Source of the DNA: Microglena sp. YARC
Taxonomy: Eukaryota; Chlorophyta; Chlorophyceae; Chlamydomonadales; Chlamydomonadaceae
Assembly: GCA_022414725.1 (NCBI GenBank)
Contig: CM039464.1
Location: forward strand, 52,470,026-52,534,025
DNA length: 64,000 bases
Reading direction: 5' to 3'
How positions within the stretch are numbered: position 1 is the first letter of the stretch; each line of letters starts with the position of its first letter. Positions 2,000 to 55,700 of the stretch are shown here, one piece after another. A program made the translations under genes and the position numbers. Under the pieces are notes generated by a model. It was not told the origin of the DNA. It was given only the letters and a program-made list of their open reading frames with translations, and did not search any database.

Positions 2000-2860
2000 T
2001 TGATAGAGGCAAATGAACTGCACAGAATGTTGTCAGGGATTAAATTGATTCATACATTTGTTTACAATTTAATAAATATAAATGTTCTAATGTGTTTACA
2101 AGGTGTCATGTGCATCAAAGACCTCACCCATGACACCCGTCACAAACCCCGCTTTTGATAGAGGCAATGGACTGCACAGAGTTTAGTCAGGGGATTAAAT
2201 TTATTCATACACTGTTTTGCAATTTAATACAATAAAATAAATGTTTTTACGACGTGTCATGTGCATCTAAGACCTTGCCCATCAAACCCCGTCACGTAGC
2301 CATTTTTGATGGACTATGAACTGCACAGGGCACTGTTAGTTTTTTATTTTTTCATTCTTTATAATTTCTGCACAATCTCTGTACACTGATGATTTAGGGA
2401 CAAACTGAATAGTACGCAGTCTAGATGTTTGCTTGTGCATCACAGACCGCGTCCATCACATCCGGAACGTATCTGTTGTTGATAGAGGCGATGAAGTGCG
2501 CAGAGAATTGTCAGGGGTTTCCTATTTTTATGTGTATAATTTATGCAGATTTCTGTACAATTTCTGTATAATTTCTGATCATAGATCATTAGAGACAAAC
2601 TAAATAGAACTCAGTGTAGATGTCGGCGTGTGCATCAAAGACCTTGACCATCGCACCCGTCACGTATCCGTTTTTGATAGAGGCGATGAAATGCACATAG
2701 TACTGTCAGGGTTTCGTTTTTTATTTTCTTATTTATAATTTCTGCGGGATTTCTGTACACTTTCTGTATACTTTCTGTACACAGACCATTTAACATTTTT
2801 GTCTAGAGGCGATGAACTGCACAGAGCACGATCAGCCTCACCGCACCGTAAACATTGTCA
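2000..2860 (-). pseudogene. Five degenerate copies of the VPS53-like exon 5' edge
   Basis: Segments near 2110-2170, 2255-2320, 2430-2500, 2615-2690 and 2790-2830 repeat the start of the exon at 1804-1987, each preceded on the minus strand by a TCTATCAAAAA-type acceptor tract. Each carries substitutions and indels, so they look non-functional. Copy spacing is about 150-190 bp. AT-rich intron-like sequence with repeated 'ttctgtacaa' words fills the gaps. Confidence 0.6.
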
Positions 2861-2890
2861 CAGTTCCAATGCGATTGCCTGGTTGAGTAA

Positions 2891-3149
2891 AGGGCTTTCT
2901 TTTCAAATCTGAAAGTGGTTTTTTTCTAGCTAATGGTTTTTACCGCTATATAAAGCGATCGCTAGTCTGAATCCCGTTTTGGCAAAAATATTGCTACACA
3001 AAAGTTTTTAAAAAAAGTTTGTTTAGCCCTGTAAAGCTATAAAAGGCTATAACAGCTTTAAAAAGCACTAAAACGCTGTCCCTGGAGGAGGCCTAAAATT
3101 TTTACAGCTAGAAAATACCCACTTTCAGATTTGAAAAACAAAAAAATGG
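2891..3149. mobile_element. hAT-like MITE, family A (fold-back copy)
   Basis: Both ends carry the family A terminal motif in opposite orientation (TTTTCAAATCTGAAAGTGG on the left, its complement on the right), and the GCGATCGCTAG core is present. Flanks TTGAGTAA (2883-2890) and TTGAGTAG (3150-3157) give a near-perfect 8-bp target duplication. No open reading frame. Confidence 0.65.
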
Positions 3150-3157
3150 TTGAGTAG

Positions 3158-3370
3158 CCCCGTGGCAAGGCGTATGAATTTTCAATGTTGGGATTGTTTC
3201 AAAGAAGAAGAAATGGAATTTCAATGTTTGGGATTGCTTCAAAGAAGAAGAAAAATAAGGAAAAAGGTGTGTGGGGTGTGCGAGCAATGGTCTGCCTCAG
3301 TGTTTTTAGTATTTCATATATAGGTAGGCCAGGTTGAGTAGCCCCGTGGCAAAGAGTATGAATATTCCAT
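3158..3370. repeat. Short direct duplication around a 'ttgagtagccccgtggc' motif
   Basis: The phrase TTGAGTAGCCCCGTGGCAA occurs at about 3150 and 3334, and 'ggattg.ttcaaagaagaagaa' occurs twice (about 3190 and 3230). No gene is visible. Confidence 0.5.
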
Positions 3371-3577
3371 TTTTGGCGGAGCCCCCTCTTCAAGGGGGCG
3401 GGAGCCCCCATGTTTACCCATTTGTCTGTTTGACCGGGAAAAAATTGAAGCCTGACACATCAGCCAACGGTTGCGTAACTAACTCGCTTCGATCAGCTCC
3501 ATCGTTGCCGCCTTTCGTTCTGTTGCCAACACACTCCGCCATTTTCCGCGTCGCTTGCGACGCTGCATAGGACTTGT
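3371..3577 (+). mobile_element. Dispersed ~205-bp 'GGCGGAGCC' element, copy 1
   Basis: Begins TTTTTGGCGGAGCCCCC with a G/C-rich hairpin (CTTC...GGGGGCGGGAGCCCCC) and ends GACGCTGCATAGGACTTGT. The same element recurs at least nine more times in both orientations in this window. Strand is assigned by convention from the GGCGGAGCC end. Class unknown; it could be a SINE or a MITE. No coding capacity. Confidence 0.8.
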
Positions 3578-3619
3578 CTAGATAGCAACTCAATGGCTGG
3601 CCCTCTCTCTGGAAGTAGT

Positions 3620-3960
3620 TGCCAGCAATGCTGAATGCCTGTGAGCAAATGTGTGGGAGTCGGGTGTAGGTGTAGGTGTTGGAGTTCGGTGAGAGTGCAG
3701 GCGTGCAAGTTTGGGGCATGTATGGGAGTTGGCTGTGGGAGTTTGGTGAGATTGTAGGTGTGCGAGTTTGGGGCATGCAAGAGAATTGGGTGTGGGTGTG
3801 GGTGTGGGAGTTGGGTGGGAGTGCAAGAGTGCGGGTGTGGGAGGTGCTTGAGAATGCAGGCGTGTGAGTTTATGGCATGCATGAGAATTGGGTGTGGGTT
3901 TGGGAGTTTAGGGTTTGGGGAGGGGGGGTAGGGTCGACGGGGGGGCTGGGAATCGGAGGG
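3620..3960. repeat. G/T-rich degenerate minisatellite
   Basis: Irregular repeats of 'gtgtgggagttggg' words. Open frames on both strands across this stretch come from the biased composition and show no protein-family features. Confidence 0.6.
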
Positions 3961-7462: not shown

Positions 7463-7637
7463 TAGGATGACAAGACGTCCTCGAGGTCATCTTTCAAGGT
7501 GTTCAGGTTCCAGCTTGCAAGCTGACTCATCACACCCACCAGGTCCCAGGTAGGATGACAGGGAGGCCTCCAGGTCATCCTTCTAGGTGTTCAGGTTCCA
7601 GCTTGCAAGTTGACTCATCATACCCACCAGCTCCTAG
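7463..7637 (-). repeat. Two extra copies of the phospholipase terminal-exon 3' end
   Basis: A block of about 87 bp containing AGGCCTCCAGGTCATC and GTTCCAGCTTGCAAG occurs at about 7463-7548, 7551-7632 and 7638-7725. The last is the genuine end of the coding exon. The two downstream copies on the gene strand carry no continuation of the exon, so they sit in the 3' untranslated or flanking DNA. Confidence 0.8.
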
Positions 7638-8952
7638 TTAGGATGACAGGAAGGCCTCCAGGTCATCTTTCAAGGTGTTCAGGTTCCAGCTTGCAAGTTG
7701 GCTCATCATCCCCACCAAGTCCGGGTCGTAGTTCATGCGGTTCTTATCGATGGTGGGGAACTCCTTGTACCCCGTGGCCGAGAATGGGGATAGCTTTTGC
7801 TCCACCGTCTCAAAGAAACAAGATCGGTCAGAGTCAATCTTCTCCTTAACCTCAGCGGGAAGGGCAGCCTCCCATGTCGTCGACTGCTGGTTGGCCACCC
7901 ACATCACATCCACTGTCAGCCCGCCCTTCACACCCATGGCACGAGAATCTACAGTGGTGAAGGCGGCCTTAAAGCAGCAGGGTCCACCAGCCTCAGCGCT
8001 GGACTTCAACCCCTCGTACAGGGCGTCCAGGCCATCGGACTCAAACACCTTAAAGCTGGAGTTCATCACCTCCGCAGTCATGCCGTCTGCTCCCTCACCG
8101 TCAGCAGGGTAGCGGCCAAAGTAGCGGGAGATATCGTAGTCATACTTGGCCCAGGCCTCAAGGTCCATTTCCGCCAGGGGCTTACTGAGAGGAGTGAGGA
8201 CGAGGAGCTTGGTCACGCCGCGCCTGAGGGCCGGGAGGATGGCCAGGGCGTCCGACCCTCCGCCGTCGCCAAAGGGCACGTAGGCCGCGCCCTTGCCCAC
8301 GTCGGCTGGGTTCCAGTAGTTGAAGGTGGGCACGCCAATGGCAGCTGCGTGCAGGGAGCCGACAATTCCATTGCTGGGCCGGAGGCTCTGAGCAACAAAG
8401 TTGGAACTCGTACCCATCATGTCTGCTAGTGGTACGACACCGTTGGATGTGACCTCCATTGAGGTGGCCGAGCCGTCTGCGTCGGGGTTGGGCTCGGAGT
8501 TCAGGCCCATGGGTTCTGTGTACCCGGCGCCGACCGGGATGGGCGACACGTCGGGGTTGGAGGACGGGCATCCGCAGTACAGCGGTGTGAACTCGTAGGG
8601 CATGAACTTCTGAGGTTGGTCGTCGTTGATGATGGATGCGCAGAAGATGGGGTAGGGTACGTTGGCGTCAGTGAGCGCGGTCATCATGCGGATACCTAGG
8701 CTAGATGCCTGCTCAGTGGCGTCAGCGTGCTTGTGTGCAGATGTACGAGCGGCAGTTACACAGCTACGATACTCACCCAGACCATAGGGCTCCAGGAAGG
8801 CTTTGCTCATGCTCTCCGACCAGGCCTTCATCTGAGCACATAGGCGTGTGTGTTTTAGTGGTGGTGGTGGTGGTGTGTGGATGCAAGGTGTGTGTCTGGC
8901 TTTGCTCATGCTCTCCGACCAGGTAATCATATGGGCACTAAGGGGGGGGGGG

Positions 8953-8983
<31 letters not shown>

Positions 8984-11900
8984 CGTAGTGGCGGTGGTGG
9001 TGGTGGTGATGTGTGGATGCAAGGTGTGTGTCAGGCCTTGCCCATGCTCTCCGACCAGGCCTTCATCTGGGCACGTAGGGGCGGGGGGTAGTGGTGGTGG
9101 TGGTGGTGGTGATGTGTGGATGCAAGGTGTGTGTCATGCTTTGCTCATGCTCTCCGACCAGGCCTTCATCTGGGCACGTAGGGGCGGGGGTTAGTGGTAG
9201 TGGTGGTGGTGATGTGTGGATGCAAGGTGTGTGTCAGGATTTGCTCATGCTCTCCGACCAGGCCTTCATCTGGGCACGTAGGGGCGGGGGTTAGTGGTAG
9301 TGGTGGTGGTGATGTGTGGATGCAAGGTGTGTGTCAGGATTTGCTCATGCTCTCTGACCAGGCCTACATCTGGGCACTTGGGGGGGGGGGGGGGGGGGGG
9401 GGGGGGTATCTGTGTGCTAGTGGTGGTGGTGGTGTGTGGATTCAAGGTGTGTAGCAGGACATCATCTGAGCATGCAGGGGATGAGTGTGTGTGCGTGTGT
9501 GTGTACATACATAAATGCATACATACATACATACATACATACTAGTACACTTGCACCACCACCTCTATTACACACGCACACACTCATCCCCTGCATGCCT
9601 AGACAAAGACCTGGTCGGAGAGCATGGGCAAGGCCTGACACACACCTTGAACCCACACACCTCCACTGCCACCACCACTAACTAACACATACCTCCCCCC
9701 CCCCCCCCCCCCCCCCCCCCTACACACCTAGACAAAGACCTGGTCGGAGAGCATGGGCAAGGCCTGACACACACCTTGAACTCACACACCTCCACATGCT
9801 CACATAATCATCACCATCAAAGGCCTTATTCACCAGCTCCTTGAAGTAAGACTTTATAGGCCCAGCCCCAGCTACCACTTTGCCGCTGCCTCCGACTCCC
9901 TACCCCCATCTCCCCCCCCCTCCCACTACCCCCACCCACCCCCACCCACACACACACACATGCTCACAATATCATCACCGTCAAAGGCCTCGCTCAGCAG
10001 CTCCTTGAAGTAAGACTTTATAGGCTCAGCCCCAGCTACCACTTTGCCGCTGCCTCCGACTCCCTACCCCCATCTCCACCCCCCCTGCCTCCGCCCCCCC
10101 ATCCCACTACCCCCCCCCCCACCACACACACACACATGCTCACATTATCATCACCGTCAAAGGCCTCATCTAGCAGCTCCTTGATGTAAGACTTTACAGG
10201 CTCAGCCCCAGAGACCACTTTGCCGCTGCCTCCGACTCCCTACCCCCATCTCCACCCCCCCTGCCTCCGCCCCCCCATCCCACTACCCCCCCCCCCCCAC
10301 ACACACACACACACACACATGCTCACATTATCATCACCGTCAAAGGCCTCATCTAGCAGCTCCTTGATGTAAGACTTTACAGGCTCAGCCCCAGAGACCA
10401 CTTTGCCCCTGCCTCCGACTCCCTACCCCCATCTCCACCCCCCCCTCCCCTGCCCCCCCCAGTGTTTTTTTTTCAGAAATCTTCAGGCCAATTTGGTAGC
10501 CACAATTGGCGACCACAGGCTTATTCTGGGACGGTGCGGTAGCACCGTCTGTAGAGCGCGAAGCGCTCGGCGGGAACACCACGTGCGACCCAGGTGCGAC
10601 CCAGGGCACAAATCACTGACCTGAGGGTCGCAATCATGGCGACCAAGGGCCCATTTCGCCCGAATTCCGCACACCTGAGGATCGCACGGGGTGGCGACCG
10701 CGCGACACAATATGCGACCGGTCGCACAAATAAAAAACACTGTCCCCCCCCACCCTCCCCCCCACACACACCCATGCTCACATTATCATCACCGTCGAAG
10801 GCCTCATCAAGCAGCTCCTTGAAGTAAGACTTTATAGGCTCAGCATCTGCTAACACTTTACCAAAGCTGCTGTAGTCCATCTGGGCTACCGCCTCAAATG
10901 TGCACTGCTCGGGGGGAATGTAGGGGCCAAGGAAGGCGGCCATGGGTGTCTGCTTCTGGAAGATAAAGGGTGCAGCAAACCAGGTGCTACCAGAGTTGGT
11001 GCACAAGTACCTGGGGACAAGGTGAATGTGGCTGGGTCAGGGAGCGTGTTTGTAGAAAGTTGTTATTGCAAGCTGCCAAGTGTGGCTTTAGAAGGGAAGA
11101 CAGCCAGAGGTGGCTGCTTCTAGAAGATAAAGGGTGCTGTGAACAAGGTGAATGTGGCTGGGTCAGGGAGCGTGTGCGTAGAAAGTTGTTATTGCAAGCT
11201 GCAAGTGTGGCTTTAGAAGGGGCCTAGGAAGACAGCCAGAGGTGTCTGCGTCTAGAAGATAAAGGGTGCTGCAAATAAGGTGAATGTGACTGGGTCAAGG
11301 TCAGGGATTTTTCCCGCTATATATAGCGATTGCTAGTTTTTACCCCATTTCAGTGAAATAATCGCTATAAAATAAGTAAAAAAAAAGTTGTTTTCGTGTG
11401 CCTAAAAAGCTACAAAAAGCAGTAGAAAGCACTAAAATGCTGTCCCTAGAGAAGGACTTCAACCATAAAGCTAGTAAAAACCCACTTTCAGATTTGAAAA
11501 AATTATCACTGTTCAGGGAGTGTGTTTGTATAAAGGAGGGAGCGTGTGTGGAGGGGTAGGAGGGGGAGGGGGAGGGGGAATGTGGCTGTGTCAGGGAGTG
11601 TGTATGTATACATGAAGGAGCGTGTGTGGAGGGGTAGGAGGGAGCGTGTATGCTCAAGGTTGTGCAAGTCCCTTTAGCCTATTTGGCCAACCTCTGGACT
11701 GCAACAACACGTATGTATATATATACATACAAATATACATATACATGCATATATATATATATAAACACAGGAATTTCCACGATTTTTCCGTTCCTCATGA
11801 AGGTATCTGAAACCACACGGCGGACACGGACAATTGCCTTCCGTACTGTTCTGCCATAATTTACAGGTACCAGTTCCGCGTTGCAACCCTCTGGTTGCCA

Positions 11901-14900
11901 CCATTTGCCTTGCACATACGCACTGGATGTGCCATCTCTCCCACCCATTGCATCGCCTTCACAATGTAATGACCAGTCATTTGAATTTCCCTAAACCCTA
12001 AACCCTAAACCAGTCATTTGAATTTCTCGAGTCCTTCGTAGCCCTTCCTTCATGCGGAGCATTCTCGCCCTTGCACCGCTCATGAGCACGCCCATCCATT
12101 GTCTGCAACCTCTTCCTAGCGTACACGCTAGCTGATCGACCCCCTCCCCCTCACATGCATTTTGGGGTGCAAGAAGCAAGCAACAGGACCTACCAAGCTC
12201 GCTTTAAGAGACCCATAGACTGGAGGGCGCGGACCCAGCCCAGAGCACAAGCTAGCTGATCGACACCCTCCTGCTCCCATGCAAACCAGGGGCAAGAAGC
12301 AAGAAACAGAACCTACCTAGTTCGCTTTAAGAGACCCATAGACTGGAGGGCGCGGACCCAGCCCAGAGCACTAGCTAGCTGCTAGACACCCTCCTGCTCC
12401 CATGCAAACCAGGGGCAAGATGCAAGCAACAGGACCTACCAAGCTCGCTTTAAGAGACCCATAGACTGGAGGGCGCAGACCCAGCCCAGAGCACAAGCTA
12501 GCTGCTAGACACCCGCCACCTCCCATGCAAACCAGGGGCAAGACGCAAGAAACAGGACCTACCTAGCTCGCTTTAAGAGACCCATAGACTGGAGGGCGCG
12601 GACCCAGCCCAGAGCACAGGTAGCTGCTCGAAACCCGCCACCTCCCATGCAGATGGCAAAGTTGTCCTTAGCTTTGATGTGCTTCATGCTGAAGTCACCT
12701 GCAGGTGTGTGGGCAATCAGGGTGGTTAGGGCGGTTAGGGTGCTTCATGCTGAAGTCACCTGCAGGTGTGTGGGCAATCAGGGTGGTTAGGGCGGTTAGG
12801 GTGCTTCATGCTGAAGTCACCTGCAGGTGTGTGGGCAATCAGGGTGGTTAGGGCGGTTAGGGTGCTTCATGCTGAAGTCACCTGCAGGTGTGTGGGCAAT
12901 CAGGGTGGGTAGGGCGGTTAGGGTGGTTAAGGCGGTTCATGCTGTAGTCACCTGCATTTGTGTGGGAGAAAGGGCAGTTAGGGCGGTTCATGCTGTTAGG
13001 GCGGTTAGGGTGGTTAGGGCGGTTCATGCTGTTAGGGAGGTTAGGGAGGTTAATGCTGCAGTCACCTGCACATTAGCATGTACACTTTTCTTTTTTGCGG
13101 TTGGGCCAGTCCCTTAAGCCTAGCAGGCTAATCCTGGACTGTAGCATACATTTACATGGGAGACAAGTTCTATGCAGCGTCGCCTGCGACGCTAAAAAAT
13201 GGCGGAGAGTGATCACGAGGGAGCGACAGGTGGCAACGGAAGCGAGTTAGTTAAGAGGCCGTTGGCTGACGTGCCGGGCTTCATCACGGTCAGATGGATG
13301 GATGGTCCGACGGACAAATGGGTAACACCGGGGGCTCCTGCCCCCCAGAAGGGAGGGCTCCGCCCAAAACAGCAAGAAGACAGTTAGAGGTAACAGTAAC
13401 AAACATGATTGGAACGCTCCCGCCCCCCAGAAGGGGGGGCTCCGCCCAAAACAGCAAGGAGACAGTTAGAGGTAACAGTAACAAACATGATTGGAACGCG
13501 CCCGCCCCCCAGAAGGGGGGGCTCCGCCCAAAACAGCAAGGAGACAGTTAGAGGTAACAGTAACAAACATGATTGGAACGCTCCCGCCCCCCAGAAGGGG
13601 GGGGCTCCGCCCAAAACAGCAAGGAGACAGTTAGAGGTAACAGTAACAAACATGATTGGAACGCTCCCGCCCCCAGAAGGGGGGGCTTCGCCCAAAACGG
13701 CAAGGAGACAGTTAGAGGTAACAATAACAAACAGGATTGGAACGCTCCCGCCCCCAGAATGGGGGGCTCCGCCCAAAACGGCAAGGAGACAGTTAGAGGT
13801 AACAATAACAAACAGGATTGGAACATACATGTAAGTCATCAATTAACAGGAAGACAGGAAAAGGTAACAATAACAGAAAGGATGCCAATTAGGTTTGCCA
13901 GTCCCTTAAGCCTAGCAGGCTAATCCTGGACTGTAGCATACATTTACATGGGAGTCAAGTCCTAGGCAGTGTCGCCTGCGACGCTAAAAAATGGCGGAGA
14001 GTGACTGCGAGGGAGCGACAGGTGGCAACGGAAGCGAGTTAGTTACAAGGCCGTTGGCTGACGTGTCGGGCTTCATCACGGTCCGACGGATGGATGGTTC
14101 GACGGACAAAAGGGTAACACTGGGGGCTCCCGCCCCCCAGAAGGGGGGGCTCAGCCCAAAACAGCAAGAAGACAGTTAGAGGTTACAGTAACAAACGAGA
14201 TTGGAACACACATGTGAGTCATCAATCAACAGGAAGACAGGAAAAGGTAACAATAACAGAAAAGATGCCAATTAGGTTTGACCAGTCCTTTTCGCCTAGC
14301 AGGCTACCCCTGAACTGTAGCATACATTGAAATGGGGAACAAGTCCTATGCTGCGTTGCAAGCGACACGGAAAATTGGCGGAGAGTGTTTGCAACGGAAT
14401 GACAGGTGGCAATGGACTGGAGCTGACCAAAGCCAGTTAGTTATGAGACATTAGGCTGCCGTGTCAGGCTTCGTTTTTTGGTCGGTCAGTCGGGTGAATA
14501 TGGGGGCTCCTGCCCCCCAGGAGGGGGGGCTCCGCAAAAATAGCAAGTTGACAATTGAAGGTACCAATTATAATTCCTTAGCTATCAAAACTCCTAACAG
14601 ATAATCCCTTAAAATTCTTTTACCCTTTGAAGAGTTACAATAACTAATTTACCCTTTGAAGAGTTACAATAACTAATTTACCCTTTGAAAAGTTACAATA
14701 ACTAATTTACCCTTTGAAGAGTTACAATAACTAATTTACCCTTTGAAGAGTTACAATAACTAATTTACCCTTTGAAGAGTTACAATAACTAATTTACCCT
14801 TTGAAGAGTTGGAATAACTAATTTACCCTTTGAAGAGTTAGAATAACTAATTTACCCTTTGAAGAGTTACAATAACTAATTTACCCTTTGAAGAGTTACA

Positions 14901-16804
14901 ATAACTAATTTACCCTTTGAAGAGTTACGATAACTAATTTACCCTTTGAAGAGTTACAATAACTAATTTACCCTTTGAAGAGTTACAATAACTAATTGGC
15001 GGAGCCTCCCCTTCTGGGGGGCAGGGGTTCCCAGGGTTACCCCTTGTTCCGTTTGACCATCCGACCGACCGAAAAATTGAAGCCTGACACGTCAGCCAAC
15101 CATCTCATAACTAACTACCTTCAGTCAGCTCTATCGTTGCCACCTGGGCACCTGTTGTTCCGTTGCCAACACACTCCGCCAATTTTCCACGTCGCTTGCG
15201 ACTCAGCATAAGACTTGTTTTGTTTGTAACATTTATTGATTTAATAACACACGGGACTGGAGCATACATTGCACGAGTGAATGCATAATGGTTCCCTACA
15301 TCTATACATGCATGACCCCAACCTTCGACCCTAGACCCTACACCCATCTTGACCCAAACCCTAAACTTTACAACTTGGTGACCACATGCATTAAACCAGA
15401 TGCAGCATTTGTATACAGGATTGTATGCATGATGGTATCCTACACCTGTGCGTGCATGACCCCAACCCTAAACCTTAAACCCTGCACGACCCCAACCCTA
15501 AACCCTGCATGCCCCAACCGTAAACCCTGCAACTTGGTGACGGCATGCATTAAACAAGATTCAGCATGCGTACCCAAGATTGTATGCATGATGGTATCCT
15601 ACACATGTGCGTGCATGACCCCAACCCTAAACCTTAAACCCTGCACGACCCCAACCCTAAACCCTGCATGCCCCAACCGTAAACCCTGCAACTTGGTGAC
15701 TGCATGCATTAAACAAGATTCAGCATGCGTATACAAGATTGTTTGCATGATGGTACCCTTTCTGTGCATGACCTAATGATTAGCATTGATAGTCATATGA
15801 TATTAATATGTGTATTTTAAAAATGGTGTACAAATGCTGTAAAAATGGTATGCAAGTTTGTTTGCATTCTGATATACGACGTCTGGGTGTGCATGACCAC
15901 ATGCACTATTATTTACAGTCTTGTTAAGATGGTACGCGAATGGTGCCATAAGGTGTATTAAGTGTGCGTGTGTGTTGAACAGACCACATGCAGGTGTGCG
16001 CATGTATCAAGATTGTGCGTGTGCATGTACATGTGTCAGGACTGAATAAATGCGTGCGAATGTGTCAGTATTGTGCATGCGCATCAGCTATTAGGGTTTG
16101 TGCATGTGCGTGCGCATGTGTCAGGATTATGCATGTGCGTCAGCTGTTAGGGGTGGGTCTCACAAGCCCTACCAGTTACTCTTAGTGAGTCATCCCCCCA
16201 CACAAACCACCACCACCTCCACCACACACACAAACAAACGCATCCACACACACATACACACACACTGACCACCACACACGCACGCACACACCACACACAC
16301 ACAAGCCACACCACCACTACCACTTACCCTCGCCGATCTCCGAACACACACACAAACCACCACACACAAACCACCACACCACCACCACCACTTACCCTCG
16401 CCAATCTCCACACACACACACAAACTACCACACACACGCTCACACCACCACCACCACTTACCCTCGCCGATTTCCGGGTACTCCAAGGTGCCAGCAAGGG
16501 GATCTCCTGACCATGTGCTGACATTGATTTTGATTGGTTTATCACAGTTGGCAGATATCCTCTTCTTCCTGGCCTCTCCAGGGGAGGCCTTGGGAGCCTC
16601 CACCAGCTGGGGGACAGGTGGGGGGGGCTGGGCAGGAGCAGGGGTGGGGGGCTCTACAGCGGGGGGGGTCTTCTTGGGGGGCTCTGGGGGGATGGGCTGG
16701 GAGGGTTTCTCGGCTTTGGGGGTTGTACCGTCCAAGGACACGTACGACTGCTTGTCCGGGGTTACGTCCTGGACCGGGGCGGGTGAGCTCGATCCGCAAC
16801 CCAT
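7638..16804 (-). CDS. cPLA2/lysophospholipase-family enzyme with acylation-type N-terminus (4 exons, 633 aa)
   Basis: Rebuilt from exons 16462-16804, 12563-12698, 10782-11010 and 7638-8831. All introns are GT-AG, phases (1, 2, 0) agree, and the total is 1902 nt including TAA. It belongs to the cytosolic phospholipase A2/phospholipase B fold, which hydrolyses acyl esters of phospholipids or lysophospholipids with a Ser-Asp dyad. Visible motifs: oxyanion loop GGGGFRA at residues 133-139, nucleophile TNSGSTW with Ser166, and DGG with Asp425 just before a PALRRGV segment as in cPLA2. Residues 1-6 are MGCGSS, a classic N-myristoylation plus palmitoylation signal, followed by a Pro-rich linker to about residue 80. 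There is no C2 domain, so membrane attachment is probably by lipidation rather than calcium. The start is the first ATG of the exon and gives the acylation motif. Seven of its eight exon edges have duplicated decoys nearby. Substrate is unknown; the family call is firm. Confidence 0.9.
8880..9480 (-). repeat. Decoy copies of the phospholipase exon 4 5' edge
   Basis: In intron 3, about five copies of a ~100-bp unit carry the acceptor region and first ~35 nt of exon 4 (GCTCATGCTCTCCGACCAGG on the plus strand). They lie near 8900, 9040, 9140, 9245 and 9345, with a remnant near 9455. GTG-rich spacers and poly-G runs (8941-8983, 9380-9405) separate them. Only the copy at 8831 is continuous with the rest of the exon. 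Confidence 0.85.
9590..9785 (+). repeat. Two inverted copies of the exon 4 edge unit
   Basis: At about 9596-9655 and 9728-9785 the exon 4 edge unit appears in the opposite orientation (ACCTGGTCGGAGAGCATGGG), separated by a poly-C run at about 9689-9720. Together with the direct copies at 8880-9480 this forms a large imperfect inverted repeat within intron 3. Confidence 0.8.
9790..10430 (-). repeat. Four decoy copies of the exon 3 3' edge and donor
   Basis: Units of about 180 bp begin near 9795, 9960, 10135 and 10318, each containing CATTATCATCACCGTCAAAG or a close variant. On the minus strand this encodes the exon 3 tail (ELLDEAFDGDDN) followed by a GTGAGCATG donor. The real edge is at 10782. 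In the decoys the sequence just upstream (minus strand) ends in Pro/Ser-type low complexity instead of exon 3. Confidence 0.85.
10460..10742. mobile_element. hAT-like MITE, family D (283 bp) in an intron
   Basis: Starts CAGTGTTTTTTTTTC and ends AAATAAAAAACACTG, an inverted pair with CAGTG termini. Flanks GCCCCCCC and TCCCCCCC give a 7/8 target duplication, less convincing than other copies because the site is a C-run. The interior is GC-rich with repeated 'tgcgacc' palindromes. No reading frame of note. It lies between the last decoy and the genuine exon 3 edge. Confidence 0.6.
11100..11300 (-). repeat. Two decoy copies of the exon 3 5' edge
   Basis: Near 11110-11170 and 11235-11295 the segment 'ctgcttctagaagataaagg' and its continuation repeats the first part of exon 3 (true copy 10950-11010). 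The copies are mutated and lack the nucleophile codons. Confidence 0.7.
11302..11511. mobile_element. hAT-like MITE, family A (210 bp)
   Basis: Starts CAGGGATTTTTCCCGC with the GCTATATATAGCGATTGC core and ends CAGATTTGAAAAAATTATCACTG. It has the same structure as the copies at 23052 and 49454. It is inserted in intron 2 inside a 'gggtcagggag' repeat, so a clean target duplication is hard to define. Confidence 0.75.
11515..11985. other. Intron 2 filler with TATA microsatellite
   Basis: GGAGGGG-type repeats (11520-11650), then an AT dinucleotide-rich tract around 11710-11765 and unique sequence. No exon is supported here because exons 2 and 3 of the phospholipase join in phase without it. Confidence 0.5.
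11989..12008. repeat. Interstitial telomere tract (CCCTAAA)n
   Basis: Nearly three copies of CCCTAAA (the TTTAGGG class), flanked on both sides by the 17-bp direct repeat ACCAGTCATTTGAATTT (11972-11988 and 12009-12025). The flanking repeat suggests a one-step insertion, for example at a staggered double-strand break. Confidence 0.85.
12110..12562 (-). repeat. Decoy copies of the exon 2 3' edge and donor
   Basis: Units of about 120 bp near 12190, 12310, 12430 and (true) 12563 share CGCTTTAAGAGACCCATAGA. On the minus strand each ends the exon (SMGLLKRA) and then reads GGTAGGTCCTGTTTC, a donor. A partial fifth copy lies at 12110-12180. Decoys lack the GGGGFRA codons, which occur only in the last unit. 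Confidence 0.85.
12715..13075 (-). repeat. Decoy copies of the exon 2 5' edge and acceptor
   Basis: The 60-bp unit GTGCTTCATGCTGAAGTCAC plus 'ctgcaggtgtgtgggcaatcag' is repeated about four times (12738, 12798, 12858, then degenerate 12930-13070). Each carries the CTGCAG acceptor and the first codons of exon 2 (GDFSMKH). The genuine edge is 12698. Confidence 0.85.
13162..13366 (-). mobile_element. GGCGGAGCC element, copy 2
   Basis: Reverse-orientation copy, from ACAAGTTCTATGCAGCGTCG to GGGCTCCGCCC. It sits in intron 1 of the phospholipase gene. Its right end seeds the 82-bp array that follows. Confidence 0.8.
13367..13850. repeat. ~82-bp minisatellite derived from an element end, about 6 copies
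   Basis: Each unit joins the hairpin end of the GGCGGAGCC element (CCCCCCAGAAGGGGGGGCTC) to AACAGCAAGGAGACAGTTAG and 'aggtaacagtaacaaaca'. Open frames of 90-150 codons on both strands are repeat artefacts. Confidence 0.85.
13955..14161 (-). mobile_element. GGCGGAGCC element, copy 3
   Basis: Reverse-orientation copy nearly identical to copy 2, including about 70 bp of shared flank (CTTAAGCCTAGCAGGCTAAT). Copies 2 and 3 therefore arose by segmental duplication rather than independent insertion. Confidence 0.8.
14339..14541 (-). mobile_element. GGCGGAGCC element, copy 4
   Basis: Reverse-orientation copy, AACAAGTCCTATGCTGCG to GGGGGGCTCCGC, more diverged than copies 2 and 3 but with the related flank 'cctagcaggctacccctgaactgtagc'. 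Confidence 0.75.
14610..14995. repeat. 30-bp minisatellite, about 13 copies
   Basis: Unit TTTACCCTTTGAAGAGTTAC plus AATAACTAAT, nearly perfect. It lies between two oppositely oriented GGCGGAGCC elements in intron 1. Confidence 0.9.
14997..15219 (+). mobile_element. GGCGGAGCC element, copy 5
   Basis: Plus-orientation copy starting directly after the 30-bp array (TTGGCGGAGCCTCCCC) and ending CAGCATAAGACTTGTTT. With copy 4 it brackets the array as an inverted pair. Confidence 0.8.
15290..15775. repeat. Direct repeats rich in telomere-like CCCTAAA words
   Basis: About two and a half copies of a ~180-bp unit containing 'gaccccaaccctaaacc', 'gccccaaccgtaaaccctgc' and TTGTATGCATGATGGTA. The CCCTAAAC words suggest ancient telomeric sequence that later amplified. 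Confidence 0.7.
15780..16190. repeat. TG/CA-rich degenerate repeat in intron 1
   Basis: Irregular 'gtgcatgtgcgtgcgcatgtgtcagga' words at about 15960-16160. No gene seen. Confidence 0.5.
16320..16440 (-). repeat. Two decoy copies of the exon 1 3' edge and donor
   Basis: CACTTACCCTCGCCGATCTC at about 16320 and its variant at about 16390 repeat the exon 1 end (true copy 16455-16480). Each gives EIGEG followed by GTAAGTGG on the minus strand, in a CACACA-rich spacer. Confidence 0.85.
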
Positions 16805-31405: not shown

Positions 31406-34400
31406 ATACTATATACACATGCATGTATCATCTATACTGTACACACTGTAAACACTGAATACACATGCATGTATCATCTATACTGTACACTATACTGTAC
31501 ACACTGTATACACATGTATGTATCATCTATACTGTACACTATACTGTACACACTGTATACACATGCATGTATCATCTATACTGTACACTATACTGTACAC
31601 ACTGTATACACATGCATGTATCATCTATACTAAACTGTACACTATACTGTACACACTGTATACACATGCATGTATCATCTATACTGTACACTATACTGTA
31701 CACACTGTATACACATGCATGTATCATCTATACTGTACACTATACTGTACACACTGTATACACATGCATGTATCATCTATACTATACTGTACACTATACT
31801 GTACACACTGTATACACATGCATGTATCATCTATACTATACTGTACACTATACTGTACACACTGTATACACATGCATGTATCATCTGTACTATACTGTAC
31901 TATACTATACACATGTACACTATACTGTACACACTGTATACACATGCATGTATCATCTATACTATACTGTACACTATACTGTACACACTGTATACACATG
32001 CATGTATCATCTATACTATACTGTACACTATACTGTACACACTGTATACACATGCATGTACACTATACTGTACACAACTGTATATACTATACTGTCAATA
32101 CTATACTGTACACATACTGTATACACATGCATGTATCTGTAACTATATACTGTACTTACTGTACACACTGTATACACATGCATGTATCATCTATACTATA
32201 CTGTACACTTATACTGTACACACTGTATACACATGCATGTATCATCTATACTATACTGTACACTATACTGTACACTATACTGTATAGTATGCATGTATCA
32301 TCTATACTATTACTGTACACTATACTGTACACTATGCTGTTACACACTGTATACTGTACCTAACTGTAACACTATACACATGCATGTATCATCTATACTG
32401 TATACTGTACACTATGTACTGTACACTATCATGCAAGTATATCTACACTATACTGTACACACTGTACACACTATACACATGCATGTATCATCTATACTAT
32501 ACTGTACACTATACTGTACACACTGTATACACATGCATGTATCATCTATACTATACTGTACACTATACTGTACACACTGTATACACATGCACATGTATCA
32601 TCTATACTATACTGTACACTATACTGTACACACTGTATACACATGCATGTATCATCTATACTATACTGTACACTATACTGTACACACTGTATACACATGC
32701 ATGTATCATCTATACTATACTGTACACTATACTTTACACACTGTATACACATGCATGTATCATCTATACTATACTGTACACTATACTGTACACACTGTAT
32801 ACACATGCATGTATCATCTATACTATACTGTACACTATACTGTACACACTGTATACACATGCATGTATCATCTATACTGTATACTGTACACTATTACTGT
32901 ACACACTGTATACACATGCATGTATCATCTATACTATACTGTACACACGTATACTGTACACACTGTACACACTGTACACATGCATGTATCATCTATACTA
33001 TACTGTACACTATACTGTACACACTGTATACACATGCATGTATCATCTATACTATACTGTACACTATACTGTACACACTGTATACACATGCATGTATCAT
33101 CTATACTATACTGTACACTATACTGTACACACTGTGTATCACATACATGTTATACTGTACACTATACTGTACACACTGTATACACATGCATGTATCATCT
33201 ATACTATATACTGTACACTATACTGTACACACTGTATACACATGCATGTATCATCTATACTGTATACTGTACACTATACTGTACACACTGTATACACATG
33301 CATGTATCATCTATACTGTACTGTACACTATACTGTACACACTGTATACACATGCATGTATCATCTATACTATATACTGTACACATACTGTGTACACATG
33401 TACACTGTATCATACTACATGCATGTACACATGTATACACACACTGCATGGCATGTATCATATACTATACTGTACACTATACTGTACACCACTGTATACA
33501 CATGCATGTATCATCTATACTATATACTGTACACTATACTGTACACAACTGTATACACATGCATGTATCATCTATACTATACTGTACACTATTACTGTAC
33601 ACACTGTATACACATGCATGTATCATCTATACTATACTGTACACTATACTGTACACACTGTATACACATGCATGTATCATCTATACTATACTGTACACTA
33701 TACTGTTACACACTGTATACACATGCATGTATCATCTATACTGTACACTATACTGTACACACTGTATACACATGCATGTATCATCTATACTATACTGTAC
33801 ACTATACTGTACACACTGTATACACATGCATGTATCATCTATACTACACACTGTGTACACATGTACACTATACTGTACACACTGTATACACATGCATGTA
33901 TCATCTATACTATACTGTACACTATACTGTACACACTGTATACACATGCATGTATCATCTATACTGTATACTATACTGTACACACTGTATACACATGCAT
34001 GTATCATCTATACTATACTGTACACTATACTGTACACACTGTATACACATGCATGTATCATCTATACTACTGTACACTATACTGTACACACTGTATACAC
34101 ATGCATGTATCATCTATACTATACTGTACACTATACTGTACACACTGTATACACATGCATGTATCATCTATACTGTACACACTGTATACACATGCATATC
34201 ATCTATACTATATACTGTACACACTATACTGCATTATACTGTATATACACATGTATACATGTATCATCTATACTATACTGTACACTATACTGTACACACT
34301 GTATACACATGCATGTATCATCTATACTATACTGTACACTATACTGTACACACTGTATACACATGCATGTATCATCTATACTATACTGTACACTATACTG

Positions 34401-43400: not shown

Positions 43401-44966
43401 TGTATCACTATAACTGTACACTATACTGTACACCACTGTACACAGTATCATATACTGCTACACATGTACACACTAACACATGCATACACATGCATGTATC
43501 ATCATCTATACTATACTGTACACTATACTGTACACCACTGTATACACATGCATGTATGCACATCTATACTATACTATACTGTACACACTAATACTGTACA
43601 CATACTGTATAAACACATGCCTGTATCATCTATACGATATACATGTACTGTACACACTGTATACACATTGCATGTATCATCTATACTATATACTGTACAC
43701 TGTACTGTACACACTGTATACACATGCATGTATCATCTAACTATACTGTACACTATACTGTACACACTGTTCGTACACATGCATGTATCATCTATACTAT
43801 ACTGTACACTATACTGTACACACTGTATACACATGCATGTATCATCTATACTATACTGTACACTATACTGTACACACTGTATACACATGCATGTATCATC
43901 CTATACTATACCTGTACACTATACTGTACACACTGTATACACATGCATGTATCATCATACTTATACTGTACACTATACTGTACACACTGTATACACATGC
44001 ATGTATCCATCTATATACTGTACACACTGCGTATACACTGCATGTACACTATATACTGTACACACTGTACACACTATACACATGCATGTATCTCTATACT
44101 ATACTGTACACTATACTGTACACACTGTATACACATGCATGTATCATCTATACTATACTGTACACTATACTGTACACACTGTATACACACACATGCATGT
44201 ATCATTGTATATCTATACTATACTGTATACACACACTGTATACACACATCATATACTATACTACTGTACACTATACTGTACACACTGTATACACATGCAT
44301 GTATCATCTATACTGTACACACGTGTATACACATGCATGGCATATCATCTATACTATACTGTACACTATACTGTACACACTGTATACACATGCATGTATC
44401 ATCTATACTGTACACACTGTATACACATGCATGTATCATCTATACTATACTGTACACTATACTGTACACACTGTATACACATGCATGTATCATCTATACT
44501 ATACTGTACACTATACTGTACACACTGTATACACATGCATGTATCATCTATTCCTGTACTGTACACTATACTGTACACACTGTATACACATGCATGTATC
44601 ATCTATACTATACTGTACACTATACTGTACACACTGTATACACATGCATGTATCATCTATACTATACTGTACACTATACTGTACACACTGTATACACATG
44701 CATGTATCATCTATACTATACTGTACACTATACTGTACACACTGTATACACATGCATGTATCATCTATACTATACTGTACACTATACTGTACACACTGTA
44801 TACACATGCATGCATCATCTATACTATACTGTACACTATACTTTACACACTGTATACACATGCATGTATCATCTATACTATACTGTACACTATACTGATC
44901 ACACTGTATACACATGCATGTATCATCTATACTATACTGTACACTATATGGAATACATGTGTATGT
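31406..44966. repeat. 54-bp satellite array, about 13.5 kb (~250 units)
   Basis: Unit starts CATGCATGTATCATCTATAC and continues with two 12-bp sub-repeats (TATACTGTACAC) and ACTGTATACACATG. Common 46-49-bp variants drop one 'actat' block. It has alternating purine-pyrimidine character (TGTACACAC, ACATGCATGT). All three plus-strand frames lack stops within the unit, and 54 is divisible by three, so very long open frames (up to about 2300 codons, 18-residue period) appear in every frame. They are not proteins. Units near both borders (31.4-33.0 and 44.4-44.9 kb) are clean; interior units, above all 37-44 kb, are full of one-base indels, which look like uncorrected sequencing error. Confidence 0.95.
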
Positions 44967-46010: not shown

Positions 46011-46014
46011 CCCC

Positions 46015-46095
46015 GACGAGTTCTCATGCGTGCACAAAGCGGCGGACGAATTCAAAAAGCCCACTCCCTCCCCACTCCCCATGCGTACACCGTTA

Positions 46096-46126
<31 letters not shown>

Positions 46127-46239
46127 ACACGCACACACATCCACACCTGAAAGCCTGACTCCTCCCCACCCCACCCCCACCCCCCCACCTCACACACACA
46201 CACACGCACACACATCCACACCTGAAAGCCTGACTCCTC

Positions 46240-47160: not shown

Positions 47161-48213
47161 TCACCGGTGCACAAAGTGACGGACGAATTCAAAGAAATCC
47201 TTTGACCTAGCAGGGCTCATAGGGTCGTGCGCCGACAAAGCTGAATGGCCTGCCTCCACTTCTTCTTCGCTACCCATGCGTGCACTGTTCCCGACGAAGG
47301 GCCAGATCTTTTCTAGCGTCAACTCTTTGCTGAGTTCAGGGTGGAACTGGAAGGCGATGACTTTATCGTTGATGCAGAACATCTCGTTGGGGGCGGTGTC
47401 TGGGAAGCAGGGGGGGCGTGTGGGTGGATGGGGGGAGCTATGTGTGTGGGTGTGTGGGTGGATGGGGGGAGCTATGTGTGTGGGTGTGTGGGTGGATGGG
47501 GGGAGCTATGTGTGCGGGTGTGTGGGTGGATGGGGGGAGCTATGTGTGTGGGTGTGTGGGTGGATGGGGGGAGCTATGTGTGCGGGTGTGGTGGGTGGAT
47601 GGGGGGAGCTATGTGTGCGGGTGTGTGGGTGGATGGGGGGGAGCTATGTGTGTGGGTGTGTGGGGTGGATGGGGGAGCTATGTGTGTGGGTGTGTGGGTG
47701 GATGGGGGGACTATGTGTGTGGGTGTGTGGGTGGATGGGAGGAGCTATGTGTGCGGGTGTGTGGGTGGATGGGGGGGAGCTATGTGTGTGGGTGTGTGGG
47801 TGTGAGTGTGCGTCACCTTGCTGAGTCTAGGGTGGAACTGGAATGCGATGACTTCGTCGTCGATACAGAACATCTCCTTGGGGGCAGTGTCTGGGAAGCA
47901 GAGGTGCAGTGCAGGCAGGCCATTCAGCTGCTGCTGCTGCTGTGTGTGTGTGTGTGGTGTGTGTGGTGTGTGGTGTCTGTGGTGTGTGTGTGTTGGAGGG
48001 GGGGTGGGGGTGGGGGAGCTCTGTGAGCTCTCAAATGATTGTTGTATGTGTGTGTGTGTGTGTGTGTTTTGGGGGGGGTGGGGGTGGGGGAGCTCTGTGA
48101 GTCGCTCAAATGATTGTTGTATGTGTGTGCGTGGTGAGGGGAAGCAAAGGGGAGGGGGAAGCAGGCCATTGAGCTTTTGTGTGTATGTGTGCATGGTGTG
48201 TGTGCGTGTGAGT

Positions 48214-48906: not shown

Positions 48907-51900
48907 GGGGGGTAAGTGGGTGGGGTGGTGGGGTGTGTGTGTGAGAGTGGTGTGGGTGTGGGGGGGGGGGGGGGAGAAGTGGGTGTCTGGGAAGCATTGA
49001 TAGAGTGTGGGTGAGTGGTGTGTGTGTGTGTGTGGTGTGTGGGGAGAAGTGGGTGTCTGGGAAGCATTGAGAGTGTGTGTGTGAGTGGTGTGTGTGTGGG
49101 GGTGGGGGGAAAGTGGGTGTCTGGGAAGCATTGAGAGAGTGTGTGTGAGTGGTGTGTGTGTGGGGTGGGGGGTAGTGGGTGTCTGGGAAGCATTGAGAGT
49201 GTGTGTGTGAGCGGTGTGTGTGTGGGGTGGGGGGAAGTGGGTGTCGGGGAAGCATTGAGAGTGTGTGTGTGAGTGGTGTGTGTGTGGGGTGGGGGGAAGT
49301 GGGTGGCGGGGAAGCATTGAGAGTGTGTGTGTGAGTGGTGTGTGTGTCGAGGGGGGGGGGGGGGGGAGTGGGTGTCTGGGAAGCACAGGGAGGTTGGTGG
49401 GTAGGTGGGTTTCAGCAGCCCAGGACAAACAGGCCGACCCCCTCAACCTCACACAGGGATTTTAATTACCGCTATATATACCAATCGCTAGTTTTGACCC
49501 CGTTTTAGCAAATTATCGCTATAAAATTTTAAAAAAGTTTTAGTTTTTTGCCCTTAATTTCCCTAAAAAGCTACAAAAAGCTATAGAAAGCACTAAAACG
49601 CCGTCCCTGGAGGAGGCCTAAAAAAGTTAAGCTAGGAGAAACCCACTTTCTGATTTGAAAAAAATATCACTGCCTCACACCTCGTAATAAGGCATCATAT
49701 TGATTGTCTTATTATTGCCAGCTCACCTAAGCGACCACCACCTCAGCACCAAAATTCTGAAATGGCATTGGTCCAAGTTGTCAGCTCACCCGAGGAACCT
49801 TCTAGGGTGGCGCTAGCTGGCAGCTTCAGGGTCTGGTCCCCATGTGATTGAAGTATGTGATCTGAGTTGCCAGCTTACCTGAGGAACCTAACAGAGTGGC
49901 GCCAGCTGGCAGCTTTAGGATCTGGTCCCCATGTGATTAGATCAAGAGATCGAAGTTGCCAGCTCACCTGAGGAACCGAACAGAGTGACGCCAGCCGGCA
50001 GTTTCAAGATCTGGTCCCCATGTGATTCAATCATGTGATCTAAGTTGCCAGCTCACCTGAAGAACCTAACAGAGTGGCGCCAGCTGGCAGTTTCAAGATC
50101 TGGTCCCCATGTGATTCAATCATGTGATCTAAGTTGCCAGCTCACCTGAAGAACCTAACAGAGTGGCGCCAGCTGGCAGTTTCAGAATCTGGTCCCCATG
50201 TGATTCAATCATATGTATATGTTGCACTGGTTCCGGAGCAGGGCAGCTAGTGCCAGCTGGCATGTCCGGGGCGGTACCAGCTGGCGTGTCGGGCGCGGTG
50301 GCAGTAGCGGCGATAGAGGTCTGAGTGACAGAGGCGGAAAGAGGTTCGTAGAGGCCATGCTGTTTGAGGTTTTCGACATGAAGGTTGATCTTTTCAACAG
50401 TGAGTACGAACCTGTGTGTGTTGGGGGGTGGGTGTGTGAGTGGGTGTTTGTGTTTGGGTGTGTGTAGTGGGGGGTGGGGGGCAGAGGTCTGGGTGACTGA
50501 GGCGGAGAGAGGTTCGTAGAGGCCATGCTGTTTGAGGTTTTCAACATGAAGGTTGATCTTTTCAACGGTGAGTACGAACCAGTGTGTGTTGGGGTGTGTG
50601 TGTGTGTGTGAGTGGGTGTGTGTTTGGGTGTGTGAAGTGGGGGGTGGGGGGGCAGAGGTCTGAGTGACTGAGGCGGAAAGAGGTTCGTAGAGGCCATGCA
50701 GCTTGAGGTTTTCGACATGAAGGTTGATCTTTTCAACGGTGAGTACGAACCTGTGTGGGTGGGTGGGGGGGGTGGGGGGGTGAGTGGGGGTGTGTTTTGG
50801 GTGGATGGGTGTGGTGGGGGGTGGGGGGCAGAGGTCTGGGAGACTGAGGCGGAGAGAGGTTCGTAGAGGCCATGCTGTTTGAGGTTTTCAACATGAAGGT
50901 TGACCTTTTCAACGGTGAGTACGAACCTGAGTGTGTTGAGGTGTGTGTGTGTGTGTGTGTGTGAGTGGGTGTTTGTGTTTGGGTGTGTGTAGTGGGGGGT
51001 GGGGGGCAGAGGTCTGGGTGGCTGAGGCGGAGAGAGGTTCGTAGAGGCCATGCTGTTTGAGGTTTTTCGACATGAAGGTTGATCTTTTCAACGGTGAGTA
51101 CGAACCTGAGTGTGGGGGGGAGTGAGTGGGGGCAGAGGTCTGCGTGAGTGATGAGGAGAGAGGTTCGTAGAGGCCATGCTGTTTGAGGTTTTTCGACATG
51201 AAGGTTGATCTTTTCAACGGTGAGTACGAACCTGAGTGTGGGGGGGAGTGAGTGGGGGCAGAGGTCTGCGTGAGTGATGAGGAGAGAGGTTCGTAGAGGC
51301 CATGCTGTTTGAGGTTTTCGACATGAAGGTTGATCTTTTCAACGGTGAGTACGAACCTGAGTGTGGGGGGGGGAGTGAGTGGGGGGCAGAGGTCTGCGTG
51401 AGTGATGAGGAGAGAGGTTCGTAGAGGCCATGCTGTATGAGATTTCCGACATGAAGGTTGATCTTTTCAACGGTGAGTACGAACCTGAGTGTGGGGGGGG
51501 AGTGAGTGGGGGGCAGAGGTCTGCGTGAGTGATGAGGAGAGAGGTTCGTAGAGGCCATGCTGTATGAGATTTCCGACATGAAGGTTGATCTTTTCAACGG
51601 TGAGTACGAACCTGTGTGTGTGTGTGGGTGTGTGGGTGGTGGGGGGGGGGAGTGGGTGGCTGTGTTTGGATGTGTGTGGTGTGTGGTGGTGGGCAGAGGT
51701 CTGAGTGAATGAGACGGAGAGAGGTTTGTAGAGCCCCATGCTGTTTTTTTATTTATTTATTTTTATTTACATATTTACGTAGAGCCCATTGTTATATTAT
51801 GTATTTATTTTATTAATTTATTTTATTTTATTTACATACTTCCGCAGAGCCCAATATTTATACAATGTATTATTTAATGTATTTGTTTTATTTACATACT

Positions 51901-52772: not shown

Positions 52773-55700
52773 GAGTAAAAGGTACTGCTACTCACTTTCC
52801 AGAGGGGTTCTTGCCAACCTCCCCACCCAGCGCCGCAAGCACCACACAAACACTCACCCCCACTCCCACACATTGTGGGGGCATCAAAGGGGTCGTGTGG
52901 GTGTGGGTGTGGGTTTGGGTGGGTGTGGGTGTGGGTGTGGGTGTGGGGGGAGTAATTGGTACTGCTACTCACTTTCCAGAGGGGTTCTTGCCAACCTCCC
53001 CATCCAGTGCCGCAAGCACCACACAAACACACACCCTCACTCCGACCCCTTGTGGGGGCATCAAAGGGGTCGTGTGGGTGTGGGTTTGGGTGGGTGTGTG
53101 TGTGGGGGGGGGAGTAATTGGTACTGCTACTTACTTTCCAGAGGGGTTCTTGCCAACCTCCCCACCCAGTGCCGTGGCCAATATCTGGGCACCAAAGCAG
53201 CAGCCTAGGATGCGAGTCTTTCCTGTCTTTACATATCTTGCAATCATCACTTCCATCTTGCGCATCCACTCAGCATCCTCATAAGCAGACTTGCTAGAGC
53301 CTGGGAGCAGCAACAAGTTGTACTTCCCTGCGAATGGTTAGGGGTTAGGGGTTAGGAGTTAGGGGCTAGGAATTATGAGTTAGGGGTTAGGGGTTAGGAG
53401 TTAGGGGTTAGGTCATATGAAAACATACTTGCCTTTGGTCAACATCATATGATATGCCGGTCGCTTGTAAAAATACACGCACAGGGCATGCCACCTAACG
53501 AGCCTTGTTGGCTACCCCTGGAGTGTAAAATTACTAGGAACAGCAAGATGATATTATATGCCGGCATACTGACTAGGCTCAATTCACCATGCCAACTAAC
53601 CAGCCTTGTTGGCTACCCCTGGAGTGTAAAATTAGTAGGAACGGCAGTATGATATCATATGATACCATTTGATGCCGGCAGTCTAACTAGGCTAAAGTTG
53701 CCATTTATATACAATATCATATGATACAGTGTGTATGATATGATACTCACTTTTGATCAACATCATACAATATGCCGGTTGCTAGTAAAATTACACGCAC
53801 AGGTCATGCCACCTAACGATCCTAGTTGGCGACCCCTGGAGTAGCCTGGAGTGTAAAAATACTAGGGAACGGCAATATGATATCATGTGATATCATGTCT
53901 GGCTCGGCTAAATTAATAATTTATGTACAAATCATTTGATGCAATTTGTATGATATCATATGATATCATACTTGCCTTTGGTCAAAATCATATGATATGC
54001 CAGTACCTAGTAAAAATACACACACAGGGCTTGCCACCTAATGAGCCTAGTTGGCGACTTATGGAGTAGATACATACTAGAAACAGCAATATGATATCAT
54101 ATGGTGCCATATGATGCCATATGATGCCGGCAGTCTTACTAGGCTAAGGTAACAATTTATGTACAAAATCATATGATGCAATTTGTATGATATCGTATGA
54201 TATCAATATATCATACTCGCCTTTGGTCAACATCATATGATGCAGTCAAACTAGGCCAAAGTTACCATTTATACGCATATATATCATATCATGCAATTGT
54301 TATGATATCATATGATACCATACTCGCCTTTGGTCAACACAATATGACATGCCGTTCCCTAGTAAAAATACACACACAGGGCTTGCCACCTAACGAGCCT
54401 AGTTGGCGACTTATGGAGTGTAAAAATACTAGGAACAGCAAGATGATATTATATGCCGGCATTCTGACTAGGCTCAATTCACCATGCCAACTAACCTTTT
54501 TTTTTTGCCTTTTTGGCTACCCCTGGAGGTTAAAAATACTAGGAACAGCAATATGATATCATATGATGCCATATGATTAGGGATCGGCAATATGTTATCA
54601 TATGATATCATGTCATCATATGATATCATATGATGCCGGCGGTCTGACTATGTAACTTTGGCCTTGGGCACCATATCATATGATATTAAATCATATGATT
54701 ATTGTATGATGTCATATGATATCATACTCGTCTTTAGTCAACATCATATGATTTTCCATTCCCTGCATATGATGCCGGCAGTCTGACTAGGCTAATGCAA
54801 CAATTTGTATACAAAATCATATGATGCAATTTGTATGATATCATATATGATATCAATATATCATACTCGCCTTTGGTCAACATCATATGATGCAGTCTTA
54901 ACTAGGCCAAAGTTACCATTTATACACATATATATCATATAATGCAATTTGTATGATGTCATATGATATCATACTCGCCTTTGGTCAACATCATATGACA
55001 TGCCGTTCCCTAGTAAAAATACACACACAGGGCATGCCACCTCACGAGCCTTGTTGGCTACCCCTGGAGGGTAGAAATACACACACAGGGCATGACACTT
55101 AACGAGCCTTGTTGACTACCCCTGGAGCAGCCTGAAGTGTAAAAATACTAGGGAACGACAATATGATATCATATGATATCATGTCTGGTTAGGCTAAATT
55201 TACAATTTATATACCATATCACATGATGCAATTTGTATGATGTCATATGATATCATACTCGCCTTTGGTCAACATCATGTGATTTTCTGGTCGCTAGTAA
55301 AAATACACACACAGGGCATGCCACCTAGCGAGCCTACGTGGCTACCCCTGGAGTGTAAAAATATTAGGAACAGAAATATGATATCATTTGATACCATATG
55401 ATGCCGGCAGTCTGACTAGGCTAAAGTTACCATGCCAACTAACAAGCCTATTTAGCTACCCCTGGAGCAGCCTGGAATTCAAAAATACACACACAGGGCA
55501 TGCCAACTAACCAGCCTATTTGGCCACCCCTGGAGGGTAAAAATACTAGGAACAGCAATATGATATCATATGCCGGCATTCTGACTGGGCTCAATTCACC
55601 ATGCCGACTAACCAGCATTTTCGGCTACCCCTGGAGGGTAAAAATACACACACAAGGCATGCCAACTAACCAGCCTATTTGGCTACCCCTGGAGCGTAAA

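Follow-up and report, generated by a model that had tools for sequence, protein, structure and literature searches.

Tandem arrays carrying copies of exon-intron boundaries in a green alga: frequent duplication without a measurable preference for splice junctions

Why should the borders of exons, together with their splice sites, be repeated in the non-coding DNA beside them? This question is raised by a phospholipase-like gene in a 64,000-nucleotide stretch of the genome of the green alga Microglena sp. YARC (hereafter the window; C3:52470026-52534025 of the 568-Mb assembly). An earlier note on this DNA held that seven of eight exon edges of the gene are duplicated in tandem, suggested that splice junctions seed the duplication or that introns grow in this way, and knew of no comparable system. 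We analyzed this gene, a second gene in the window and a sample of ten other genes. The arrays are very probably minisatellites of the type named "mirages" in amphioxus, i.e., products of frequent tandem duplication of non-coding DNA with units that cross junctions by happenstance.

The phospholipase-like gene occupies positions 16804-7638 of the minus strand and consists of four exons that join into a single open frame of 633 amino acids; all three introns are GT-AG, with compatible phases:

16462..16804, minus strand: exon 1, with ATG at 16804
12563..12698, minus strand: exon 2
10782..11010, minus strand: exon 3
7638..8831, minus strand: exon 4, with the stop codon

A separately predicted protein, P0001, is 100% identical to this frame at all common residues and matches five of the six splice edges (5' and 3' of exon 2, 5' and 3' of exon 3, and 5' of exon 4). 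The edge that differs is that of exon 1, where P0001 does not have the last 28 residues (window 16462-16545). This stretch (W...PE) is kept in 8/8 aligned homologues; therefore, the donor at 16462, chosen in the earlier note, is better supported than the P0001 model. At exon 1, the public model is thus probably in error, the faulty annotation lying next to a mirage array; alternative splicing may be another reason for the gap. As to identity, 11 homologues are listed including P0001, the other ten are 31-36% identical, and all four that bear a species name come from green algae. The gene is a putative lysophospholipase on the strength of these homologues, six of 11 of which contain the lysophospholipase domain PF01735. 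The spliced 633-residue protein scores 21.1 bits against PF01735, below the cut-off of 23, and a search of the alga's own genome with this profile produced no match, the control also matching nowhere.

Copies of the edges were sought with 70-nt probes (40 exon and 30 intron bases per edge), and tandem arrays were located with Tandem Repeats Finder (TRF). Both sources support the following features unless stated otherwise:

16275..16475, minus strand: exon 1 3' edge array, 68-bp unit; two copies, decoys 16409-16366 and 16342-16299 (four low-complexity inverted matches set aside)
12679..12966, minus strand: exon 2 5' edge array, 61-bp unit; three near-identical copies, decoys 12789-12740, 12850-12801 and 12911-12862, and one diverged copy, 12966-12927
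12123..12651, minus strand: exon 2 3' edge array, 123-bp unit; three copies, decoys 12479-12410, 12356-12287 and 12233-12166
11017..11297, minus strand: array beside the exon 3 5' edge, 132-bp unit; two copies without splice site (TRF, alignment and probe)
9785..10459, minus strand: exon 3 3' edge array, 176-bp unit from 9913; four copies, decoys 10366-10308, 10183-10115, 10007-9938 and 9843-9785
8898..9390, minus strand: exon 4 5' edge array, 100-bp unit from 8993; five direct decoys, 8943-8898, 9079-9033, 9192-9138, 9292-9236 and 9382-9336
9573..9765, plus strand: two inverted copies of the exon 4 5' edge, 9573-9636 and 9730-9765 (probe)
7463..7722, minus strand: 88-bp array at the stop-codon end of exon 4, three copies, i.e., two extra (TRF)

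The copy numbers given in the earlier note are right to within one copy. Of the six true splice edges, five are accompanied by copies with splice sites; the eighth "edge" is the end of the coding sequence at the stop codon, not a splice junction. Arrays of competing splice sites exist in most sets, and the claim that a splice site is present in every decoy is correct for most sets as well. It fails at the 5' edge of exon 3, where both copies hold about 30 nt of exon plus intron flank and a 38-nt gap deletes the acceptor and the exon edge. Within the arrays, copies of the unit (61, 68, 88, 100, 123, 132 or 176 bp) match at 83-99% (TRF). The edge copies are not due to chance because the gene region yields 147 self-alignments, compared to 0 in each of five dinucleotide-preserving shuffles. 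Runs of a CCCTAAA-like, plant telomere-type interstitial repeat are also present in the gene, at 11989-12011 and 15326-15759; the latter run is part of a tandem array with a length of 159 bp given for it.

Tandem copies might be produced by repeat mis-assembly. The arrays do contain long homopolymer and short tandem tracts, and the amphioxus authors reported one mis-assembled mirage (PMC3087553). However, most edge copies are only 75-97% identical to the true edge (the three exon 2 5' copies are 98-100% identical), which makes duplication by the assembler unlikely. Most copies also differ from one another, some having private deletions, and genes located on four large contigs display the same pattern. 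An assembly artefact is thus extremely unlikely.

The central question is whether splice junctions themselves seed tandem duplication, e.g., by transcription- or splicing-linked breaks or through adjoining simple repeats. The proportion of duplicated splice edges in the phospholipase-like gene speaks for seeding, and so does that in a class I glutamine amidotransferase gene located at 47-53 kb of the window on the minus strand (PF00117, 48.1 bits for the exons once joined), where four of the five scored splice edges are duplicated into introns. Both genes surfaced through the pattern itself and, therefore, genes for the test were picked by protein family. The sample, spread over four large contigs (C1, C2, C3 and C5), comprised seven genes of the CCT/Cpn60 family and three kinesin genes. 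Eight CCT gene clusters that fit in 10 kb were taken, seven of which were used, as one (L031) yielded no junction; the kinesins were three compact genes, one of which (L034) already had a partial copy in the list of profile matches. It should be noted that the sampled genes are conserved and compact, and very long introns are under-sampled. Junctions were predicted from profile continuity, frame and GT/AG, and an edge was considered "spanned" if a local self-alignment of at least 75% identity crossed it by 12 bases on each side. For CCT, 22 of the 25 scored exon pairs were used, with the low-scoring pairs 303/313 of L026, 300/301 of L027 and 227/248 of L030 dropped, and seven pairs with large profile gaps were left out. 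For kinesin, seven of eight pairs were used: 148/152 of L036 was dropped, and 243/244 of L035 was retained although its score was low (1.3). In manual curation, decoy matches were removed in L029 and L034 and one L026 match was trimmed; for the L026 pair 254/253, the second-ranked donor 2954 was taken over 2924, neither being spanned. Among the four dropped pairs, one edge is spanned (L026 4296) and the rest are not, and inclusion of all four gives 23/66.

In the ten genes, 22 of 58 edges (38%) are spanned, including 8/29 donors and 14/29 acceptors, or 15/44 edges in CCT and 7/14 in kinesin genes. Matched intron points predict 24.2 +/- 3.2, so that no excess at edges is observed (P(>=22)=0.80). 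There is no junction peak in coverage either: it is 0.38 at the edge compared to 0.31-0.52 within the intron at distances of 10-180 nt, and drops only within the exon, to 0.12 at 90 nt in. Likewise, with the low-complexity filter on, exon-interior points of the first seven genes are spanned in 128/639 cases, compared to 948/2235 for intron points. We varied the E-value, low-complexity filter, span and identity over 24 settings, and none produced a significant edge excess (lowest P(>=obs) 0.45). Edges fall below the matched expectation in 21/24 settings, pooled edge coverage is lower than pooled intron-point coverage in 24/24, and edges are depleted in one setting (bootstrap interval -0.27 to -0.01). 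Exon borders in the ten-gene sample are thus no more often duplicated than intron points, which, within this sample, is the kind of outcome that the earlier note had named, for a genome-wide test, as refuting its proposal.

Four points weigh against this conclusion. First, edges are slightly above the matched expectation in 3/24 settings (15 vs 14.2-14.5, P 0.45-0.49). Second, the upper limit of the gene bootstrap, +0.12, leaves room for a modest enrichment, given 58 edges in ten conserved genes. Third, the window genes look rich in spanned edges, at 9/11 (9/10 among the edges that have a corresponding control draw) compared to 6.8 expected, P=0.10, in a comparison of 11 edges with 10 control draws; interior intron points of these two genes are spanned at a mean of 0.68. 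This excess is not significant, and it is found in genes that surfaced by the pattern itself. Fourth, a survey of tandem repeats in plants and algae reported enrichment close to the junctions of introns and exons, most notably in two green algae (PMC3887541). A high density of tandem repeats in green-algal introns is common to that work and ours, whereas its junction enrichment differs from the profile observed here; unit sizes and definitions differ too, and units that include exon sequence, as ours do, are not described in the passages that we draw on.

Further observations bear on seeding and on breakpoints. The exon slices in decoys range from 17 to 113 nt (51 alignments in the ten genes), which argues against a fixed breakpoint. 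Microhomology at breakpoints was examined in 128 near-identical pairs, a comparison confounded by longer arrays. Conversely, the same CCT donor has been struck independently in two paralogues, a coincidence that favors seeding. The exons of these paralogues are 87% identical at the stretch, and there are three decoys at this donor in one and two in the other, each nearer to its own exon; therefore, the arrays arose after the paralogues split. Taken with the absence of an excess and of a junction peak, we consider seeding by splice junctions unlikely.

If mirage-type minisatellites are the explanation, the non-coding DNA of this alga would be tandemly duplicated very often, without measurable regard to junctions. 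A unit that is wholly intronic, or that crosses from exon into intron, would leave the original exon intact while the exon-attached copy stays spliced, and such duplications would persist and then expand. Units wholly within an exon would alter the protein and would mostly be purged by selection. The surviving exonic copies would hence tend to contain an edge, and exon borders would look like anchors because selection removes exon-internal duplications and spares those that cross a junction. Both this selective filter and the regular use of the exon-attached site are what we infer; the duplications themselves may arise by slippage, unequal exchange or end-joining.

The other half of the original proposal, that introns grow by such duplication, is borne out. 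In the 33,973 bp of intron in the ten genes, about 61% of the bases lie inside local self-alignments, 30% lie in exon-anchored alignments and 16% align to exon sequence. Introns thus grow through local duplication, partly from exon sequence. Profile searches of the genome gave 128 kinesin and 64 CCT matches, some of them partial copies of an exon located beside the parent; 15 pairs of matches overlap within 3 kb. The geometry expected of edge duplication (a shared profile start if the copy is 5', a shared profile end if it is 3') is found in 9/15 of these pairs (kinesin 8/12, CCT 1/3); two of the other six are decoy-decoy pairs and four do not fit.

A different route, intron birth, is described by the Rogers-type model, in which an AGGT-containing exon segment is duplicated, exon only, and an intron is created (PMC4974935, PMC2891723). 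It shares with our case a tandem duplication near splice motifs. Its signature, i.e., donor and acceptor contexts that are two copies of one exon segment, is lacking here: the contexts are alike at or above the 95% level of the null in 3/34 introns compared to about 1.7 expected, and a Rogers-type origin of these introns is therefore unsupported. Moreover, the copies described here are edges of introns that already exist. Two details favor the model, namely that the kinesin L035 intron 2118-3855 and the next exon both begin with GTGCCAC, although the junction call is weak, and that one intron is not shared between two CCT paralogues. Taken together, intron birth by this route is quite improbable. 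In the paralogues L027 and L029, whose exons are 77-83% identical, there is an intron near profile position 288 in L029 and none in L027; the intron has thus been gained or lost since the duplication.

Are the decoys maintained because they are used? Selection might hold arrays of competing splice sites in place to regulate splicing. We scored 84 edge-spanning alignments (51 from the ten genes, 33 from the window genes; overlaps may count one array repeatedly). Both splice bases are kept in 74/84, compared to 2843/3840 nearby control dinucleotides, a difference that favors function. The per-base match at splice bases, 0.93, is, however, barely above that of the adjoining exon copy (0.91 and 0.87); in the intron, the match is 0.86 at 6-12 nt and 0.78 at 13-30 nt in. 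With constraint acting on the true copy alone, the rough expectation is sqrt(0.78) = 0.88, and the observed 0.93 is slightly higher. The difference between 74/84 and the control dinucleotides is likewise about as large as such one-sided constraint would produce, and the retention is no evidence of upkeep: the splice sites of decoys decay in a neutral-like manner, as passive copies would. In addition, the splice site is lost in one of seven sets, and the decoys are private to each gene in the single paralogue pair examined. A regulatory function of the decoys is therefore very unlikely.

The structure itself has been described before, contrary to what was first supposed. In the amphioxus Adh3 and globin genes, mirages are minisatellite-like tandem duplications of exon-intron boundaries, with units of 150-160 bp and 81-100% identity in BflGb6; haplotype polymorphism and normal splicing, by RT-PCR (reverse transcription polymerase chain reaction), are reported as well (PMC3087553). 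As here, the unit spans the boundary (five of six phospholipase-like edges, 22/58 in the ten genes), both 5' and 3' boundaries are affected (8/29 donors and 14/29 acceptors in our sample), units are imperfect and of minisatellite size (61-176 bp, 83-99% match), AG/GT is retained in many units though not in every one (74/84 alignments), and one copy runs on into the real exon. The hosts differ, a cephalochordate and a green alga, and so does the extent, a few reported loci compared to 22/58 sampled edges. Splicing and haplotype instability were reported in amphioxus, whereas the alga is represented by the sequence of one assembly. The present case is thus a green-algal one, with a high load in the sampled genes. 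Among the matches listed for "mirage" in the open-licence literature, the term occurs only in the amphioxus paper (PMC3087553); a report outside amphioxus may exist.

Other known systems are less similar. In potato RdRp, a tandem duplication across an intron-exon boundary yielded a new spliced intron (PMC4974935). The duplicated unit crosses the boundary and carries splice signals along, as in the alga; however, that is one two-copy case that made a new intron, whereas here multi-copy arrays enlarge existing ones. Introner elements are near-identical introns dispersed among genes, whereas the copies in this alga are local ones (no search for dispersed copies was made).

The glutamine amidotransferase gene region (window 45700-53700, minus strand) contains exon edges copied up to nine times into introns:

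53135..53327, minus strand: exon A; two direct donor decoys and one inverted, 52581-53012
50146..50411, minus strand: exon B; nine acceptor-edge decoys, 50540-52176, and four donor-edge decoys, 49769-50095
47161..47399, minus strand: exon C, ending in the stop codon; longer acceptor-edge decoys 47851-47911, 48815-48867 and 48641-48699, plus shorter ones

No decoys of the exon A acceptor edge were found by probe. Between the two genes, positions 31408-44948 are a 13.5-kb minisatellite with a unit of about 54 bp (ACTGTATACACATGCATGTATCATC...), where genes were sought only via the list of open reading frames. Elsewhere in the genome, several rbcL matches are found on contigs C996, C1833, C2356, C2018, C764 and C2110; four are full-length and without stops, two of these lying on a single contig in opposite orientations, whereas stops interrupt the others. 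Among the clusters listed for rbcL, at 85-91%, is one of Batophora at 89%.

These results show one concrete route of intron growth. They also suggest that duplicated exon edges may defeat both automatic gene prediction and repeat masking. We put forward, only tentatively, a broader and rather doubtful possibility: that boundary-crossing duplication is a main engine of intron growth, that near-identical tandem decoys accompany about four in ten splice sites across the genome, that splicing must choose the exon-attached site among equals, and that decoys are occasionally captured as new sites or introns. If the fraction of 38% holds genome-wide, the genome of the alga would represent a natural experiment, and a large one, in how a true site is recognized by splicing next to a near-identical neighbor, a choice that amphioxus offered at a few reported loci.

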